Notes under the pieces: model-generated
Seen by the model: the letters and a program-made list of their open reading frames with translations, nothing else
Databases searched by the model: none
Told to the model about the DNA's origin: nothing
DNA from: Thelephora terrestris
Taxonomy: Eukaryota; Basidiomycota; Agaricomycetes; Thelephorales; Thelephoraceae
Assembly (NCBI GenBank): GCA_015956445.1
Contig: WIUZ02000010.1
Location: 1,116,001 to 1,180,000 of the forward strand
Direction of reading: 5' to 3'
DNA: 64,000 nucleotides
Position numbers and translations under genes: made by a program
Shown: piece after piece, positions 28,628-39,585 of the stretch
Numbering within the stretch: position 1 is the first letter of the stretch
Layout of the letters: every line of letters starts with the position of its first letter

Positions 28628-30955
<2,328 letters not shown>

Positions 30956-31552
30956 CCTGGTTAATTGTGGGTGATGTAGATGAAATTAATGAGGTTTGAA
31001 AGTCGTGTTTTGGGTGGTAGTTGGAATATGAATGAAAGAGATGAATGACACGTCGAAGCCAAGCGCCGTGTTACGAAAGTCAGATGAGAACGAAAGACGC
31101 CGGCCCCCTTCGTTGTATGCGAAGCTCTGATCCTGGATGATATCGAGTTAGTGGTCAGTCCCAGAGTTATGCGCAAGCAGTAGTTACACGTTACTGAACG
31201 GAGGTGACAGCCTGAGCAAAAAAAAAAAGGGAACCCAAATCTGTCAACGTCCAGTCTTTGTACCCAAACGGGCTGCGATCCGTTTTTGGCCTGCATTTCC
31301 CCTACGCGAAAATTTCTGACTTCCAAATTCTACTATTCAAAAGCACACCGCACTCAGGGTGAGGATCTCGATGATTTACGGGACAAACCAAGATTCCAAG
31401 TACATAGACACAGATGATGACCTGGGTCCAGGACCGGTACGTGGTGATGACCATCATCAAAACTGCACGTGACAACCGCGTCGTGCTTCATTAGGCTGAT
31501 TCAGATTAGCTTTCATCGAACTCGCGTCGGCAATCCCCCTGTGTCGTCCTTC
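30956..31552. promoter_or_regulatory. kinase upstream region, up to the transposon insertion
   Basis: Upstream DNA of the minus-strand kinase gene. Parts of it (for example the blocks near 31130-31170 and 31430-31550) reappear, diverged, at 38100-38345 next to the kinase pseudogene. The last seven bases (31546-31552, GTCCTTC) are the left target-site copy of the inserted element. Confidence 0.6.
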
Positions 31553-31564
31553 TGGGGATGGGCA
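31553..31564 (+). repeat. left terminal inverted repeat
   Basis: 12 bp, perfect match to the reverse complement of 36390-36401. Preceded by the target-site copy GTCCTTC at 31546-31552. Confidence 0.85.
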
Positions 31565-32024
31565 ACGCGCACCAAAATTTTAGTCTCGATCATCGTCGAT
31601 TTTAACCCTCCAGTCCGCAACTCGGTTGGAGGTGTTTTAGTTTAATGTAGTCACTCGTTTGTGAGATGGATATGTCAGAAACCGCGCAATCATAAATTCC
31701 CTGGAGTTTGGTTCAGACTAGATTTTCCCGCCCAGGCACCAGTGACAATGTTCACATATTTCACCGACCAAAAAATGTGAAAATCCACCCAGCTATCGTG
31801 CTACGTGCACGAATGGTATCTTGAATTATTCCCTTGATGAGAATTGCACTGCGGAACCAGGGTTGGTTTGTTGCGGACTCGCGAGTTTGTTGAGGCGCGG
31901 TTACCATATATGTACATGCACTAGTTACATAATCAAAACATAAAGATCTGTGAACCGGGCGGAAAGGGGGATTGCAAAATTTCGCTCTGCACCACTACCC
32001 ACTCAGCCCTCTACACTTCACAAA

Positions 32025-35000
32025 ATGCCTCTTGTGGGCCGCCAGAGAACAAAACTTCAGAAGGCTCACACCGCCGCGATGGGGAGACAACGGGGACTTC
32101 CGAGGTCTGATGCGAAGGCCGAGGTGATTGACCCAAAAAACCGCCGCCTCTTCTCGCTAGCGCGGAAGGAGCTCAGGAAGGAAAGAAAAGAAAAAAAACA
32201 GTTGGAGTATAACTTCCAAAGGAGGGAACAAACCAGGAAAATGCGGGAGGAGTTGGAGATGAAGAAGACAGAGGATCGAATCCAGGCAGCGACTGAAGCA
32301 GCCGAAGAAAGATATAAGGGAAGATTCGAAGAATGGAGAAAAGAGAAGGAATGCCTGAAGAAGAACGTAGCGCGGCTCGATGCCCGCGACCGTCGAGAGC
32401 CGTTGAGGATCCAACATGCAATCCAACAGTTCGAAAAACACAGCCATGACACCAGCGCGGTTCAGCCGGTCATCCGGTACGTCAAGGACAAGCGAGGGGT
32501 TGTCCAGGACTGGGCACGCAACGCGATCTTGACACTGGTTAACCAAGGGGTTCCGATGTCGAAGACGTGGGACGTGACGAGTGCGAATGCGAAGGCGTTA
32601 GGCGTGGTGATTGTCGGGACGTGGAGCATCCGAACGAGCCGTCGAGTTGTTCGTGAGGGTGGTATTGCAGCCGGGCTCATGATTGTTGAATATGTCCTAA
32701 CGTGTATAGGTCAGTGTTAAGCTCAGAGGCATGTTCGCTTTTTTATTCACCATTGATAGCGATGACTATGAGTGGCGACGGAACCTCGCATAAAAGCATC
32801 CAATACTCGTCGAGGTATGCTGTCGTCATCCCTCTGAACAGCCAACCACCAAAGGATTGCTTCCTTGGGATCACTCCCGAGGTAAACCACACGACCGCCA
32901 CACAATTCGAGGGATGGAAGGAGACGCTTCAACACCTCTGCGACAATTTCAACAAAAGCCCTCTTGGGAACGAGGCACCTGCAGACCCTACCCGTATGTG
33001 GCAGAAGTTGAAAGGATACCTCAGTGACCATGCGTCGGACCAGAAGAAGCTTTCCGCCGCGTTGGAGAGGTACCGGTGGGAGTGCGATCGAGAGCTTCGG
33101 GGCCAAGCTGCGATGGTGTCGGACGAACATGTAGAGGAACGAAATCAGGTGATGGTGGAGAAAGGCAAGGAGCTGATGGAAGAAATAGGTGGTCCAGACC
33201 GTTATCTGGCGCTGCCTGTTGACGAGCAGATTCGATTCGCGAAGAGGTTGGTTCGCGAGGCGCAGATTTGCCTCGGTGAACGGGCCTACCAACGGCTGTC
33301 ACCAGAAGAGAAGGAGGTTGTCGACTGGTGGGTCTGGTCCGGGTGTGCGATGCATAAAGATCTTAATGCGATGAAAGCGGGAGCAGATAGAATGTCGAGA
33401 TGGTGGGTTGAATTTGGGGAGGGAGTGGCACCGGTGGCCTTGATGAACAAGTTCAAGACTATCGCAGCAAAATCTGGATCAGTACCTGAAGGGAGCATCG
33501 TTGGACCTGGAGACAGAGGGGGAGTGAAGGTAACGGACCTTCTTGGTTCACTGGTTAAGCATAGGGAAACGAAGAAGGGGCATCAAGAACGCTTCCGAGC
33601 CTTTTCGGTTGAATTCCTCGGGATCCCGCGGCCGGTTCAGTTCCCGGACACGAGCAACAACCGGTACCAGAGTCACGGCCTTGCCGCCACTGAAATCCTC
33701 CACCACCTAGATCTCTACCTCGCATTCTTACAATCGGTAGCTGACTCGAAATCCCTGGGGAACGAACTAAATCACCTCGAACAGAATGTGCAAGCCGGCC
33801 TCAATGACCCTCCCACCCGCACGGAACTTTGCGTCCTATCCCTCTACTCCCAAGCGATCAGTATTCCATTTTCGCAGCACATCCGTACACCAAGCAATGC
33901 ATCTTTGAATGGGTTAGACCTTGGCCCAGTCTACGACCGAATCAAACGACATATGGAGGCCGTGATCAACAATCCTGATATATTGCTTGGGCGTGGGGCC
34001 TCGCAGGAAGTCGGGACACTATATGGAGAAGAGTGGAACAACGCAGATGTGATTCAGTTCATTCGAGACAACGCAGATTCCTTCCCCCACCTACGAAAAA
34101 TTCTGATCGAGTTCTTTCGAGGTGCCCTCGAAACATGGAACGAGTTTGCCAAAGACATCTGCGGGAACCCCAAGGTGACAGAGGCTACCCCAGAGCAACG
34201 CCGCCTCGCCTTCAGGCACCCAACAAATGATCTCAATGAGGGTGCACTTGGCACTCTCCGACAAGAGTATCGCGCATATCCCAACATCACCTTCGGAATG
34301 GTCAACGCAAAACTGATGTGCAAGTAAGCTGCTTTAATTTATATATCGACACATGGTTTACCATGAACAAAGGCTAAATCCCGGTGTTGTCGAGTACACA
34401 TCAAACCTTCCCCCCGTGTGCCGGCGTTACCTTCGAGGCGCGGCCCGAGAACAGGATCAAAACAAAACATATCAAAACTTCCTCCTCTCACAAGCACGTG
34501 AAGACACTAAGACTGCCAAGGAAAAACGGGCCGCCGCAGACAAACGCAAGAAGCGAGTCCAGGCTCGGACGGACAAGCTCAATGCATTTAACCCGATCCT
34601 TAGTCTCGGGAAGTTGAAGAAGATGACAATGGATGGTGACAGATCAGAACGCATCAAGCAACAGTTGTCTTGGCACAAACGGATTGGCCGGGACGTGAAT
34701 ATCCCAGCGGGGTTTCACGCATTTCGCAAGGCAAAAGCCTGGGGAGCTATGGTCAAAGCCGTTCAGCGGCATCAACTTGGCACATCACACCGGAAACTCC
34801 CAGGTGTGCATTGAATATACCCAAAAATTCAGTACACACTGACTTTCCACAGAACCGGAGCAAATCGATGAAAACTTCGACCCCTTTGTCGGCGTTGAAA
34901 TCACACCGGACGTGGGCGACAGCGTTAATGACGACAATTGCTCTATTCCAGGAGGCGATGACGACAACGACGGCGTTCGTTCCAACGTAGGCAGTGGCAG

Positions 35001-36120
35001 TGACGAGTTCCCCAACACAGATGATGACGATGATGTCACCAGCAACACTGACATTGTTGCAGATGAGGTTTCAGCCCACCACATCTCACTGGACCCAGTC
35101 GTTGACTCCGAATGTGAAGATATTGCTTGTGAAGGTGAGGATGCTGATGAAGGAGACGAGGAACTAATGGAGAGCAATCACGCCTTCGCTGTCAAGCTCG
35201 GTGTCGTACCACCACGGTCAACCCGCGATGCTGGATGTCAGCCGCCTTCACCGTATACCGCTGGCTGTACCTGGTCAAGAGAAGACTGGTCGTGTTCATA
35301 CGATGCTGTTTTCATGGCCTTCTGGTCACTGTACGAGCAATCGTCCCAAAATTGGCACTGCAATTGGAGGGAGCGTGCACTGGAGTGGAATGGACCACTT
35401 GGCGAAAATTTTGATCATCTCATCATCCTCGCGGCCACTCCAGTTAGCATCCAGGACCGCATGGGGTGGTTCTGCCGTTATCGCGATCGTCTTCGCAACC
35501 AGCTGTCCCGCAAAGACCCCGGGTCATTCCCACGCAGAGGACAAGTCCCAGCCTCGGCCAGTCGCATATTAGAACTCCTGTTCGGCAAAGCCACTGGACC
35601 ATATCTCGAGCAACGCCTCATCTGTCGAAGTTGCGAGGAGTCATCTCGAGCAGAACGCGAAATCTGTTTCCTCGCGTTGGGTGGTCTGCAAAAAGACAAA
35701 ACTCAAGTCTGGCTACACACAATTTGGGCAGAGTTCGTCAATCGCTCCAAAACAGAAGCCGCTCATATGGGAACTATGTGTCCCCACTGCCGGGGTCCAA
35801 ACGAGGTGCGGGATTTGAGGATGCCGGAAGTACCGTGGATTTGGTTTGAGCGCGAACGATCTTCCCCTGTGTGGCCTTCGCTAACCCTTGGATTTGACTC
35901 CCCAACCCAGCGGCTTAGGTACAGCCTACGCGTGATCATCTACGCCGGTGGAAACCACTTTACCGTGCGCTTCCGTGACCGGTCGGACGGATGGTGGAAG
36001 CACGACGGTCAGATCGCCTCAGGAGTCCCACAATCTGACGACATCCGGTCCGAGGCGGAACTTCTCACAAACGGCATGCGTTTTGCCTGCACATTTATTT
36101 ATCGTCGCGATGACAATTGA
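32025..36120 (+). CDS. transposon-borne protein: SGDGT-family core fused to a USP-like peptidase
   Basis: 1315 residues from exons 32025-32709, 32760-34323, 34373-34803 and 34853-36120. An in-frame ATG at 31950 is a possible earlier start. The N-terminus has a basic region and coiled coil (about residues 45-125, RKERKEKKQLEYNFQRREQ). Then comes a core with MSGDGTSHKSIQYSSRY (near 233), ITPEVNHTTATQFEGW and, near 720, DLNEGALGTLRQEYR. These are landmarks I recall from a large Agaricomycete family of unnamed proteins. The Asp of SGDGT and Glu of NEGALG could belong to an RNase-H-like transposase, but that is inference. An acidic linker (about 910-1005) leads to a C-terminal domain with Cys box DWSCSYDAVF (near 1040), two CxxC pairs (CRSC, CPHC) as in USP zinc fingers, and His box GGNHFTVRF followed by WWKHDG. 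This resembles a C19-type deubiquitinase. Confidence 0.78.
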
Positions 36121-36389
36121 ATCCTGGTCCGTGTTTTCTCTCCCGCTTCAGTGCTGATCTACCCTCGTTACCCTCTCCCTTGTTGTTGATCTTCACTCAC
36201 GGCCACTTACCCCGTGTATCATTACCAACGAAAACCCCCCTGCCACATGCTATAGTAGTTAGCCTGTAAACTCCGCACACTGTAGTTGTCGTGTCTCATA
36301 TGTGGAATTTATTAACTCGAGCGCGCCTCGGAGGAGCCTTCCCCTGCGGCAAACAAGTGTAAACAAATTACGATCAAACTTGGTGGGGC

Positions 36390-36401
36390 TGCCCATCCCC
36401 A
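36390..36401 (-). repeat. right terminal inverted repeat
   Basis: 12 bp TGCCCATCCCCA, followed by the second target-site copy GTCCTTC at 36402-36408. Confidence 0.85.
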
Positions 36402-36830
36402 GTCCTTCATCCCCGTCGTTCATCCCATTGCATTCTCTACCCCTAAAAGAAAAGCCATGTCAGTTGAAATTTTTACTCTCACTGAAGGCGGAGTCGCGAC
36501 CAGGAAGCCCAAGACTTGCCTCCGAGTTCCGGAGGACGAGTGGAAACGGTACACCAGAATTGATGAGGTCCTTTTTTCTCCACGTCCGGATGTGGCACGC
36601 CTGACACCGAAGTCAGGTCCTTTGTGTACGGAAGGTAACAATAATACTTCCACCACATCGTTTCTTGAGCTTGTCGACAAATTGCATGGGACGAGCGGAA
36701 TACCGCGACAGCTCTGACGGGCCAGATTTGTTCTCCTCGCGGGTAGACAGAGAAGAATACATGGTTATATTCCACCCTAAAACGACTGTACACTAACGCG
36801 CTGAGGCCTCGTTTCAATCCGAAAGCGCAA
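36402..36830 (+). repeat. segmental duplicate block A (unit 1, right of the element)
   Basis: Diverged but collinear with 38345-38645 and then 39410-39585. Matching landmarks are GAGTGGAAACGGTA with the following CTCCACGT and GTGGCACGCCTGAC, and later CGAAATACCGCGAC-like and CTGTACACTAACGCGCTGAG. Unit 2 has about 760 extra bases between the two halves. Confidence 0.65.
36457..36717 (+). CDS. small ORF of unknown reality, partly conserved in the duplicate
   Basis: 86 codons, with a central block EDEWKRYTRIDEVLFSPR. In the second duplicate (about 38483-38631) the same frame reads EDEWKRYARFNEVCSSPR, but its start codon is ACG and it stops after GTPD. Conservation of the block at protein level suggests that a coding exon once existed here. 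No domain is recognised; it may be an exon of a larger lost gene. Confidence 0.35.
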   Translation: MSVEIFTLTEGGVATRKPKTCLRVPEDEWKRYTRIDEVLFSPRPDVARLTPKSGPLCTEGNNNTSTTSFLELVDKLHGTSGIPRQL

Positions 36831-37109: not shown

Positions 37110-38345
37110 ATTTTGCTTACATTTTATCTGTGACCTGGGAGAAGGAGACGAACGATCGTAGAATGGAGGCGGTCCACCGCGCACACCAGTCCTCACCACA
37201 GCGTTCGGCTCTCAAATACGACCGCGTTAAACCAAACTAATAACTCACTGTATCCATAACCGCTCGAGATCCCCGGAGCGAGGTACAGGCGGAAGGTGTT
37301 CGCCATATCCAGATCCTTCACGTTTAATTTGCACGGTTCAGAATCATCAAGAACGATATGGCCAGCATAATCGATCCCAGATCCCTATAGGGGACGCCTC
37401 AATTCCGCCGGGATGGTCACTGTGCGAACTTACCGGTACAACGACGTCAAGATCGTGGAGGTGCCCCAGAACCAAAAAAATCTCCGCGCTGCAAGCCCTC
37501 GACTTCTCTTCACTGGATCTCTGCCACCCGTAAAGGATCACGGAAAATTCCCCCCTCTTGGCCAAGCCTAGCTCCGAGAAACGAAAACGGTCACGGTGGA
37601 ACCAGATACAGCTGCTGTTCTGATCGGAAGCATAAGCTTTCTGACAGCACACATTCGCCCGATATCGGGAGGGGTCAGGGTCTGATCGGTGCACAGCATA
37701 GACTTGGATAAGATCCCAACAAAGCTTGCCTCTCCGAAGCTTCAATTGCTTTTCCGATCGCGGCGATCAGCTCCAAGGAAATCGTAGATTGCTCAGAGGT
37801 TCCCTATATAATTCGATTGTCAGCAGGGCGAACACACCGGAGGGTTTCAGCACTGAATGTCCTATGAAAAGAAGTACGATCACGGGAAGAAGGCGCCAGG
37901 GTTTCAAACTTCCAAGACCTGAACACCGGCAGGAAGTTCCTTGAACCCCCCTCTGCGCGGTTGGCGTGGGTAGCGAAGATTTCAGAGCGTATGTAATTGA
38001 AGCCTCGAATCGAGGTCGGTGTCGTCGAGCGGAGAAGTATCCATCTCTTGGGTCTGGAACTCCCTGGCGAGTGTTTCAGGATAGACGCCAGTCCCTCCGT
38101 TGTATGTGGGTGGAACTGTGATCATGAGGGGGTACCGAGCTAGTGGTCAGTGAGATAATTTTGTGTGCTGGCAGGACTGAGCGGAAAGCACGAAAGCAAT
38201 TCTATCACTGCAGGCACTTGCCGACGGCCCGGCGGGCCGTGCTGGGGCCGACTCATCATCAACCCCGTGACAAACGCGTCGCGATTCATTAACAACGGTG
38301 CAAACTTGAATTTCGCGTCGACGTTCCCCCCTGTGTCATCGACTC
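37110..38345 (-). pseudogene. decayed, unprocessed copy of the YPK-type kinase gene
   Basis: Runs parallel to 29050-31550 with many mismatches and gaps. Recognisable pieces in order include the exon-7 end and intron near 37125-37155, ACTCACTGTATCC (exon 6 boundary) near 37250, the DFGLCK/GHI region near 37310-37370, the HLHDLDVVY region near 37440-37470, and the intron sequence CCCTATATAATTCGAT near 37800. A stretch matching the N-terminus and upstream region follows to 38345. Because introns and upstream DNA are included, it arose by segmental duplication and not from an mRNA. Large parts of exons 1, 2, 4 and 8 are missing and many frameshifts are present. No function expected. Confidence 0.82.
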
Positions 38346-38650
38346 ATCCTTCACTCTCTATACAAGAGAAAATCACGCTAAAGCAGAATTTTATTGAAGA
38401 CGGAGTTCAGACCGGAAGGCGTGAGTCTGGCGAAAGTTCAACCCGCGGCACCCTTCGACCCACCTCCACTCCCTTCCCATTCCCACGTCAGCCAAGGTAT
38501 TCAATAAGAACGGGATCCAGATTAGGAGGCTCGAGTCTGGCCAATGTGTTCTGGAGGATGAGTGGAAACGGTATGCCAGATTCAACGAGGTGTGTTCTTC
38601 TCCACGTCTCAAATGTGGCACGCCTGACTGACGTAAGGGCTAGGTCTTAC
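38345..38650 (+). repeat. segmental duplicate block A' (unit 2), with the empty transposon site
   Basis: Counterpart of 36402-36625. At its left edge, about 38328-38352, the sequence runs from the kinase-upstream homology directly into block A through one ATCCTTC, with no 4.85-kb element. This gives the pre-insertion state of the site occupied in unit 1. Confidence 0.65.
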
Positions 38651-39409: not shown

Positions 39410-39585
39410 TGCAGTCAATGCCAATTGTACCATATCATCTGTTGAGGCTTGTAGACACATCGCGTAGGACGAACGAAATACCGCGACTGCAGAAGATTCA
39501 TCGTAACATACTTCACGGTCGTATTTCGCCCTAAAACAACTGTACACCAACGCGCTGAGGGACTCGTGTTAATGCGAGAAGAGCA
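39410..39585 (+). repeat. segmental duplicate block A'' (unit 2, distal half)
   Basis: Diverged copy of about 36650-36830: shared order of GAACGAAATACCGCGAC, a GTAACATACTT/ATACATGGTTAT stretch, CCCTAAAAC and CTGTACACCAACGCGCTGAG. Confidence 0.6.

Follow-up and report, generated by a model that had tools for sequence, protein, structure and literature searches.

The window analysed here is a stretch of 64,000 nucleotides from the basidiomycete Thelephora terrestris (contig WIUZ02000010.1, positions 1,116,001 to 1,180,000). It contains a complete mobile element at 31546-36408, target duplications included, with the transposon bases proper at 31553-36401. Judging from its sequence, we think that this element is probably an autonomous cut-and-paste-type transposon. 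Its only protein would combine a DNA-binding front with a DDE-type core that matches no Pfam family, and would end in a cysteine peptidase of the ubiquitin-specific peptidase (USP) fold class, nearest to USPL1 (family C98). We propose that the core binds the element ends and cuts and joins DNA through D235, D318 and E722, the cuts being staggered by 7 bp. The peptidase would strip SUMO or ubiquitin off the transposase, or off host proteins that collect at the transposition complex, and this removal could guard the complex from degradation or from SUMO-dependent silencing.

Element ends and genomic copies

An earlier note on this DNA had described a perfect 12-bp terminal inverted repeat and a perfect 7-bp target duplication, and both are exact on re-reading. 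In the window copy taken alone, one further base (C/G) pairs, so that the ends can also be read as 13-bp inverted repeats flanked by a 5-bp duplication. We rejected that reading because a sister copy on contig C14 shares the 12-bp ends but is flanked by another 7-bp duplication, GTTCGCG, and this decides in favour of 7 bp.

Genome searches covered the host assembly (40.6 Mb in 60 contigs, labelled C1, C3 and so on). With the 520-residue core (exon 2) as query, 18 stretches match, a lower bound; since two of them belong to one copy on C18, the genome contains at least 17 core copies. Clade A comprises the copies in the window and on C14, C10, C34 and C3 and a fragment on C7, with 67-99% identity to the window copy, and the C13 copy at 51%. 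Clade B comprises the copies on C6, C45 (two), C7, C56, C23, C18, C1 and C17, at 35-39% identity to the window copy. An extra fragment on C45 (C45:2174546; 39% identity over 137 residues) was placed in neither clade.

Both ends were located in 12 of the 17 copies. An exact 7-bp duplication flanks 11 of these 12, and every one is a different sequence (GTCCTTC, GTTCGCG, GTGTGTT, ACCTTAG, CTTTCAG, TAGCTTC, TATGATA, GATCGAG, CAAGGAG, GGTTATC and CATCTAC); a 7-base match is expected by chance once in 16,384 per copy at equal base frequencies. The elements end in TGG..CCA and have inverted repeats. These are perfect over 18 bp in the C23, C56 and C7 copies and become imperfect after 4 to 16 bp in the others, with between 11 and 14 of the 14 outermost bases paired in each copy. 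The C14 sister copy (C14:567365-586730; L009, L018, L010) is 98.6-99.5% identical to the window copy in three pieces, and it is interrupted by two insertions, one of about 1.4 kb (4-bp overlap) and one of about 13 kb (5-bp overlap). The C6 copy (L051, L032) contains about 1 kb that recurs at 99% identity next to the C1 copy (L057, L028).

The ends of clade B also occur on short elements. The end pattern TGGGGAYSGGCAAC has 74 occurrences in the genome and the backward control pattern has none. Of these, 44 pair up convergently at distances of 668-682 bp, which gives 22 pairs. We read 12 of these 22 short elements (e.g. L074-L085) and found an exact 7-bp duplication in six. Over stretches of up to 275 bases their ends can be aligned with full-length clade-B copies, mostly at 66-84% among the matches listed. 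The short elements fall into several subfamilies, and some of these elements are 99% alike. The short elements thus fit the pattern of non-autonomous elements that would be mobilised in trans. The earlier note had called the element an apparently whole single-gene DNA transposon and had asked for other genomic copies with the same ends and 7-bp duplications; such copies exist, together with short relatives of non-autonomous appearance, and the description holds.

The insertion itself is weakly backed by a diverged, collinear repeat of both flanks without the element, at window positions 38243-38349 (66% identity) and 38511-38628 (75%), the first alignment spanning the insertion junction by four bases only (E 1e-4). 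A search of the host genome with the joined flanks found no empty site closer than this repeat. The collinear repeat also takes in window positions 39416-39560. To the left of the element lies a 298-residue open frame (30059-30955, minus strand) with no Pfam match at E 0.01.

Gene structure and transposase core

The four predicted exons (Table 1) join into one open frame of 1315 residues and a stop, as the earlier note had claimed. The splice sites are predictions, and alternative intron choices also leave the frame open. By inspection, the C3 paralogue has three introns at the same positions as the window copy. The helix-turn-helix-like region of exon 1 aligns between clades A and B. The motifs already named in the earlier note (SGDGT, NEGALG, a Cys box, two CxxC pairs and a His box) are all present, and they are kept in the paralogues.

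Table 1. Window coordinates of the transposon ends, the predicted exons and the candidate catalytic codons of the peptidase.
Feature	Position	Strand	Remark
Left target-site duplication GTCCTTC	31546..31552	.	Read from the sequence; 7-bp length backed by other copies
Left terminal inverted repeat TGGGGATGGGCA	31553..31564	+	Exact 12-bp match to right end
Exon 1: coiled coil and helix-turn-helix-like conserved region (about residues 155-220), both by eye	32025..32709	+	
Exon 2: transposase core, candidate triad D235/D318/E722, CxxH (C424-H427)	32760..34323	+	Alignment
Exon 3: basic region (by inspection)	34373..34803	+	
Exon 4: acidic linker, then the USP/USPL1-like peptidase domain at the C-terminus (35200-36117)	34853..36120	+	
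Candidate nucleophile Cys1041 codon	35293..35295	+	Invariant in 16/16 rows
Candidate catalytic His1262 codon, followed by Phe	35956..35958	+	Invariant in 16/16 rows
Candidate catalytic Asp1278 codon	36004..36006	+	15/16 rows of A1, 14/14 full-length rows of A3
Right terminal inverted repeat TGCCCATCCCCA	36390..36401	-	Exact 12-bp match to left end
Right target-site duplication GTCCTTC	36402..36408	.	Exact repeat of left duplication

The core alignment (A2) contains 15 of the 18 matches, L051 (with a stop) and the fragments L059 and L061 being excluded. Among the rows that cover each position, D235 is conserved in 11/11, D318 in 12/12, the CxxH motif (424-427) in 14/14 and E722 in 13/13. On inspection, the first strand ends at D235, and D318 comes behind a strand that is itself preceded by three strands and a helix, which resembles an RNase-H fold. 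These motifs suggest a DDE-type core. The ratio of nonsynonymous to synonymous substitutions (dN/dS) in the core is 0.06-0.12 over six pairs by NG86 and 0.08-0.19 by YN00.

A probable C-terminal peptidase of the USP class

With the peptidase as query, 23 stretches of the genome match. In 14 of the 17 copies the core is followed downstream by such a match, split or partial in those on C14, C23 and C18, and the three copies without one (C7:789248, C17 and C45:2174546) are partial core matches. Alignment A1 holds 16 of the 23 matches, seven fragments being excluded; A3 holds 14 full-length rows, after L022 (cut by an insertion) and L031 were dropped from A1. Residue numbers in these alignments count from window position 35200. 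Cys32, Tyr34, Asp35, Cys142, Cys145, Cys197, Tyr248, His253 and Phe254 are invariant in A1, and Cys194 is replaced by Trp in one row (L025). Asp269 is missing only from the row cut by the C14 insertion. The domain thus shows the motifs of a USP fold, with the Cys-His-Asp triad and both CxxC pairs arranged in the expected order. The distance from Cys to His is 220-229 residues and from His to Asp 16 in all 14 full-length rows; the USPL1 triad C236-H456-D472, as described in PMC8983731, has spacings of 220 and 16.

A profile search of PDB (177,635 sequences, E 10) gave nine matches. Three of them are of the USP class and align at the His box: two chains of USPL1 (E 0.10 and 0.12) and one chain of a ubiquitin carboxyl-terminal hydrolase (E 0.14). 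USPL1 is accordingly the nearest meaningful match of the peptidase, a statistically weak one, and the assignment to the USP class rests on the set of motifs and not on any one score. The peptidase shares with USPL1 the order Cys - CxxC - CxxC - Tyr-x4-His-Phe - Asp, the spacing and the lack of room for a second blocking loop; it differs in having no significant score, in not keeping Asn398 and His421 of USPL1 and in being located on transposons. The USP-like peptidase of the earlier note therefore stands at the level of motifs (triad, zinc-binding pairs, spacing and weak USPL1 and UCH profile matches) and falls short in that none of its database matches passes a curated cut-off.

The peptidase is also under selection. 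Over 12 pairs, two Helitron pairs included, its dN/dS is 0.12-0.23 by NG86 and, for 10 of the 12, 0.14-0.31 by YN00. In several of the core and peptidase pairs compared, dS is above 1.5 and near saturation. Judged by these ratios, peptidase and core are both under purifying selection.

Related peptidases on Helitrons

No core lies close to six of the 23 peptidase matches. Among these, two short fragments of 50 and 53 residues (C1:4087454 and C1:3410978) lie away from any core match, and a piece of the left part of the element (L019) lies near the first. The other four (L034-L037, L062) are Helitron loci, C3:868673, C18:70366, C10:680870 and C3:398933, where the peptidase ends the RepHel protein and, by eye, follows a PIF1-type helicase. 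The one RepHel protein of the four that was scanned has 2406 residues in one frame, with DUF6570, Helitron_like_N and PIF1. Helitron_like_N (PF14214) is present at all four loci, and at C3:398933 a stop splits the frame ahead of the peptidase domain. Since a peptidase match lies nearby at only these four of the 32 Helitron_like_N matches in the genome, the peptidase-bearing Helitrons probably form one lineage. In an unrooted tree of 14 domains, which is to be read with a warning about long branches, the Helitron rows separate from the transposon rows with support 100/100. For comparison, the Helitrons of P. ostreatus are reported in PMC4289320 to be without the cysteine protease of animal Helitrons.

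Results that weigh against the proposal

Several results speak against the interpretation proposed here. At the level of the element, the C6 copy has no target duplication although both its ends were located, and the other six of the 12 short elements that we read have no exact 7-bp duplication. In the core, further acidic residues are nearly invariant, so the choice of D235/D318/E722 is not forced and the triad is a working proposal; a single-sequence AlphaFold model of the core has a predicted confidence (pLDDT) of 41.5, too poor to show a fold.

For the peptidase, the first-ranked PDB match is a DnaJ-type zinc-finger chain; the other five outside the USP class are a second such chain and four photosystem chains. 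Pfam C98 (PF15499) is found in 4/16 rows, with a best E of 0.039 and 14 bits against a cut-off of 27, and Pfam UCH (PF00443) in 2/16 rows, with a best E of 0.002 and 18.2 bits against a cut-off of 23.9. The plainly unrelated Phage_holin_2, surely a chance match, is found in 3/16 rows with a best E of 0.0048. A peptidase profile built from the Helitron rows only found nothing in PDB, and the profile of one paralogue found two chance matches there. Profile comparison with four host USPs aligned 19 columns at the His box with a probability of 3%, and the single-sequence AlphaFold model of the peptidase (pLDDT 34.4) gives no structural support. In the host genome, PF15499 found nothing at E 10 in a search run without a positive control; the UCH profile matches 37 stretches, none of them at these elements.

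SUMO or ubiquitin

According to PMC8983731, Tyr451 and Phe457 are found in all USPL1 orthologues, ubiquitin USPs having His and Tyr at these positions, and USPL1 is described there without the two blocking loops. The equivalents of both residues, Y248 (five residues before His) and F254 (one after), are kept in 16/16 rows. Of six host USP stretches that were fetched, the four that went into the alignment all carry His and Tyr at these positions, with a longer spacing. Outside the alignment, the two split host USPs read GHY (L066) and, at a possible exon edge, GHC (L068). Mapped on the HMMER alignment, the equivalent of USPL1 Asn398 is Asn in 1/14 rows and that of His421 is His in 0/14. With two USPL1 diagnostic residues kept and two other contacts not, the residues do not decide between SUMO and ubiquitin. 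The earlier note had called the domain a deubiquitinase, which is too specific: two of the telling residues are for SUMO and two against.

We give close to an even chance to a SUMO-specific protease of the USPL1 type, acting against SUMO-dependent silencing or against SUMO marks on the transposase. The invariant Tyr and Phe, in which the aligned host USPs differ, and a Tyr-x4-His spacing equal to that of USPL1, too short for the second ubiquitin blocking loop, argue for it, and the loss of the Asn398 and His421 contacts argues against it. A deubiquitinase that keeps the proteasome away from the transposition proteins, a role proposed for the VTD domains of Helitrons, is a real possibility that we hold more tentatively. 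VTD and OTU proteases provide precedents on transposons (PMC9741609), UCH is the better of the two Pfam scores of the peptidase, and, according to PMC7391069, Gly-Gly-cleaving enzymes from various classes, among them USPL1, share an aromatic residue after His; Y248, F254 and the shorter spacing are, however, unlike ubiquitin USPs as described in PMC8983731. It is improbable that the peptidase cuts the transposon's own polyprotein and so frees itself from the transposase: the long acidic linker between the domains would suit such a cleavage, but enzymes with this aromatic motif are described in PMC7391069 as restricted to Gly-Gly tails. A catalytically dead passenger is very improbable, given the conserved triad and a dN/dS well below 1 in both transposon and Helitron settings.

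Relation to named superfamilies

The earlier note could fit the ensemble to no named superfamily, and indeed no Pfam family matches, the KDZ profile included. The full 1315-residue protein has no Pfam family at E 10, and the 15 core rows give only four one-row chance matches, with no hAT model at E 10. The core found one chance match and no meaningful relative in PDB, and one chance match in NCBIfam. Searches of viral contigs, with the peptidase alignment and with only the core, turned up pattern matches and no confirmed relative.

By the Pfam profile, membership in KDZ is rejected. The KDZ domain PF18758 has no match at E 10 in the window protein or in the core rows, and its profile matches 125 stretches of the genome and 0 of the 17 element copies; a profile comparison of the core with two KDZ proteins, a weak test, was also negative. 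The 125 stretches represent a large KDZ load of the host genome; together with the short introns and the 32 Helitron_like_N matches, they fit a basidiomycete. Kyakuja is described in PMC12730594 with CA..TG ends and no inverted repeats, and the TGG..CCA ends and inverted repeats of our element do not agree with it. Dada is rejected on the same ground, being described without terminal inverted repeats (PMC3706591). By that description Dada is alike in its 6-7-bp duplications and in a DDE core with a DxxH motif after the second D, and it is described as inserting into small-RNA genes and as having CCCC and CCHC zinc fingers; the 11 duplications of our element all differ from one another.

We still regard it as nearly an even question whether the element has a named superfamily (KDZ/Kyakuja, hAT7, Dada or another Repbase group) from whose other members it has diverged too far for the profiles used here. 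Kyakuja and fungal hAT7 likewise make 7-bp duplications (PMC12730594), a C/DxxH motif is common to Dada, hAT, P, MuDR and Kolobok according to PMC3706591, and the comparison was made with Pfam profiles, which do not exclude a diverged hAT. Against it stand the missing Pfam matches of protein and core, the failure of the KDZ profile on every copy and the inverted repeats that Kyakuja and Dada are described as lacking.

Known systems and meaning of the finding

Ubiquitin and SUMO proteases on transposons are already known. Ginger1 carries Ulp1 and OTU, Mutator carries Ulp1, and in T. vaginalis one protein joins transposase_11 to Peptidase C19 (PMC2836005). These resemble the present protein in carrying a ubiquitin or SUMO protease C-terminal to a transposase, that of T. 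vaginalis being even of the C19 class; they differ in the transposases (Gypsy-integrase-like, Mutator and transposase_11), and a single protein is named for C19 in that account. VTD and OTU proteases occur on Helitrons, many VTDs being on the Helentron class (PMC9741609). The VTD deubiquitinases, which are likewise described from agaricomycete fungi, are also ubiquitin-type proteases on a mobile element and proposed guards of transposition proteins, but by their description in PMC9741609 they are another protease class, and no VTD chain was among our PDB matches. VTD Helitrons are also described with a C-terminal AP endonuclease, which was not seen in the Pfam scan of the one Helitron protein. 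For Ulp1, OTU and VTD alike, a role in transposition is put forward as a proposal in PMC2836005 and PMC9741609.

Fungal superfamilies, Helitron included, are known to have exchanged an accessory enzyme in the case of TET/JBP (PMC12730594). Kyakuja/KDZ and hAT7, among which that module moved, are thus like our element in this respect and in their 7-bp duplications, and differ in the accessory enzyme. Our literature search found no USPL1-type peptidase on a transposon and no such transposase; it found no USPL1-type protease common to a cut-and-paste element and Helitrons, and no paper with both USPL1 and Helitron. A paper on papain-like proteinases (PMC10318531) has no word starting with "transpos". 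A USPL1-type protease on both a cut-and-paste element and Helitrons was thus not found in the literature searched.

It is tempting to go further and propose, as an unlikely but coherent scenario, that an undescribed fungal DDE superfamily (7-bp duplications, TGG..CCA ends, D/D/CxxH/E) early took up a USPL1-type SUMO protease that is also found on a Helitron lineage, that SUMO removal would be their common counter-defence, and that animal USPL1 may descend from such a mobile peptidase.

Coming back to the autonomous transposon proposed here, we note that selection maintains one kind of peptidase on two elements of a single genome that are mechanistically unrelated; this points to a need common to both, and one that can be tested. 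The element is compact, with one gene, defined ends, a full-length copy and short elements that carry the ends of its relatives. A donor-and-helper assay could thus ask whether the protease matters for transposition, and against which modifier.

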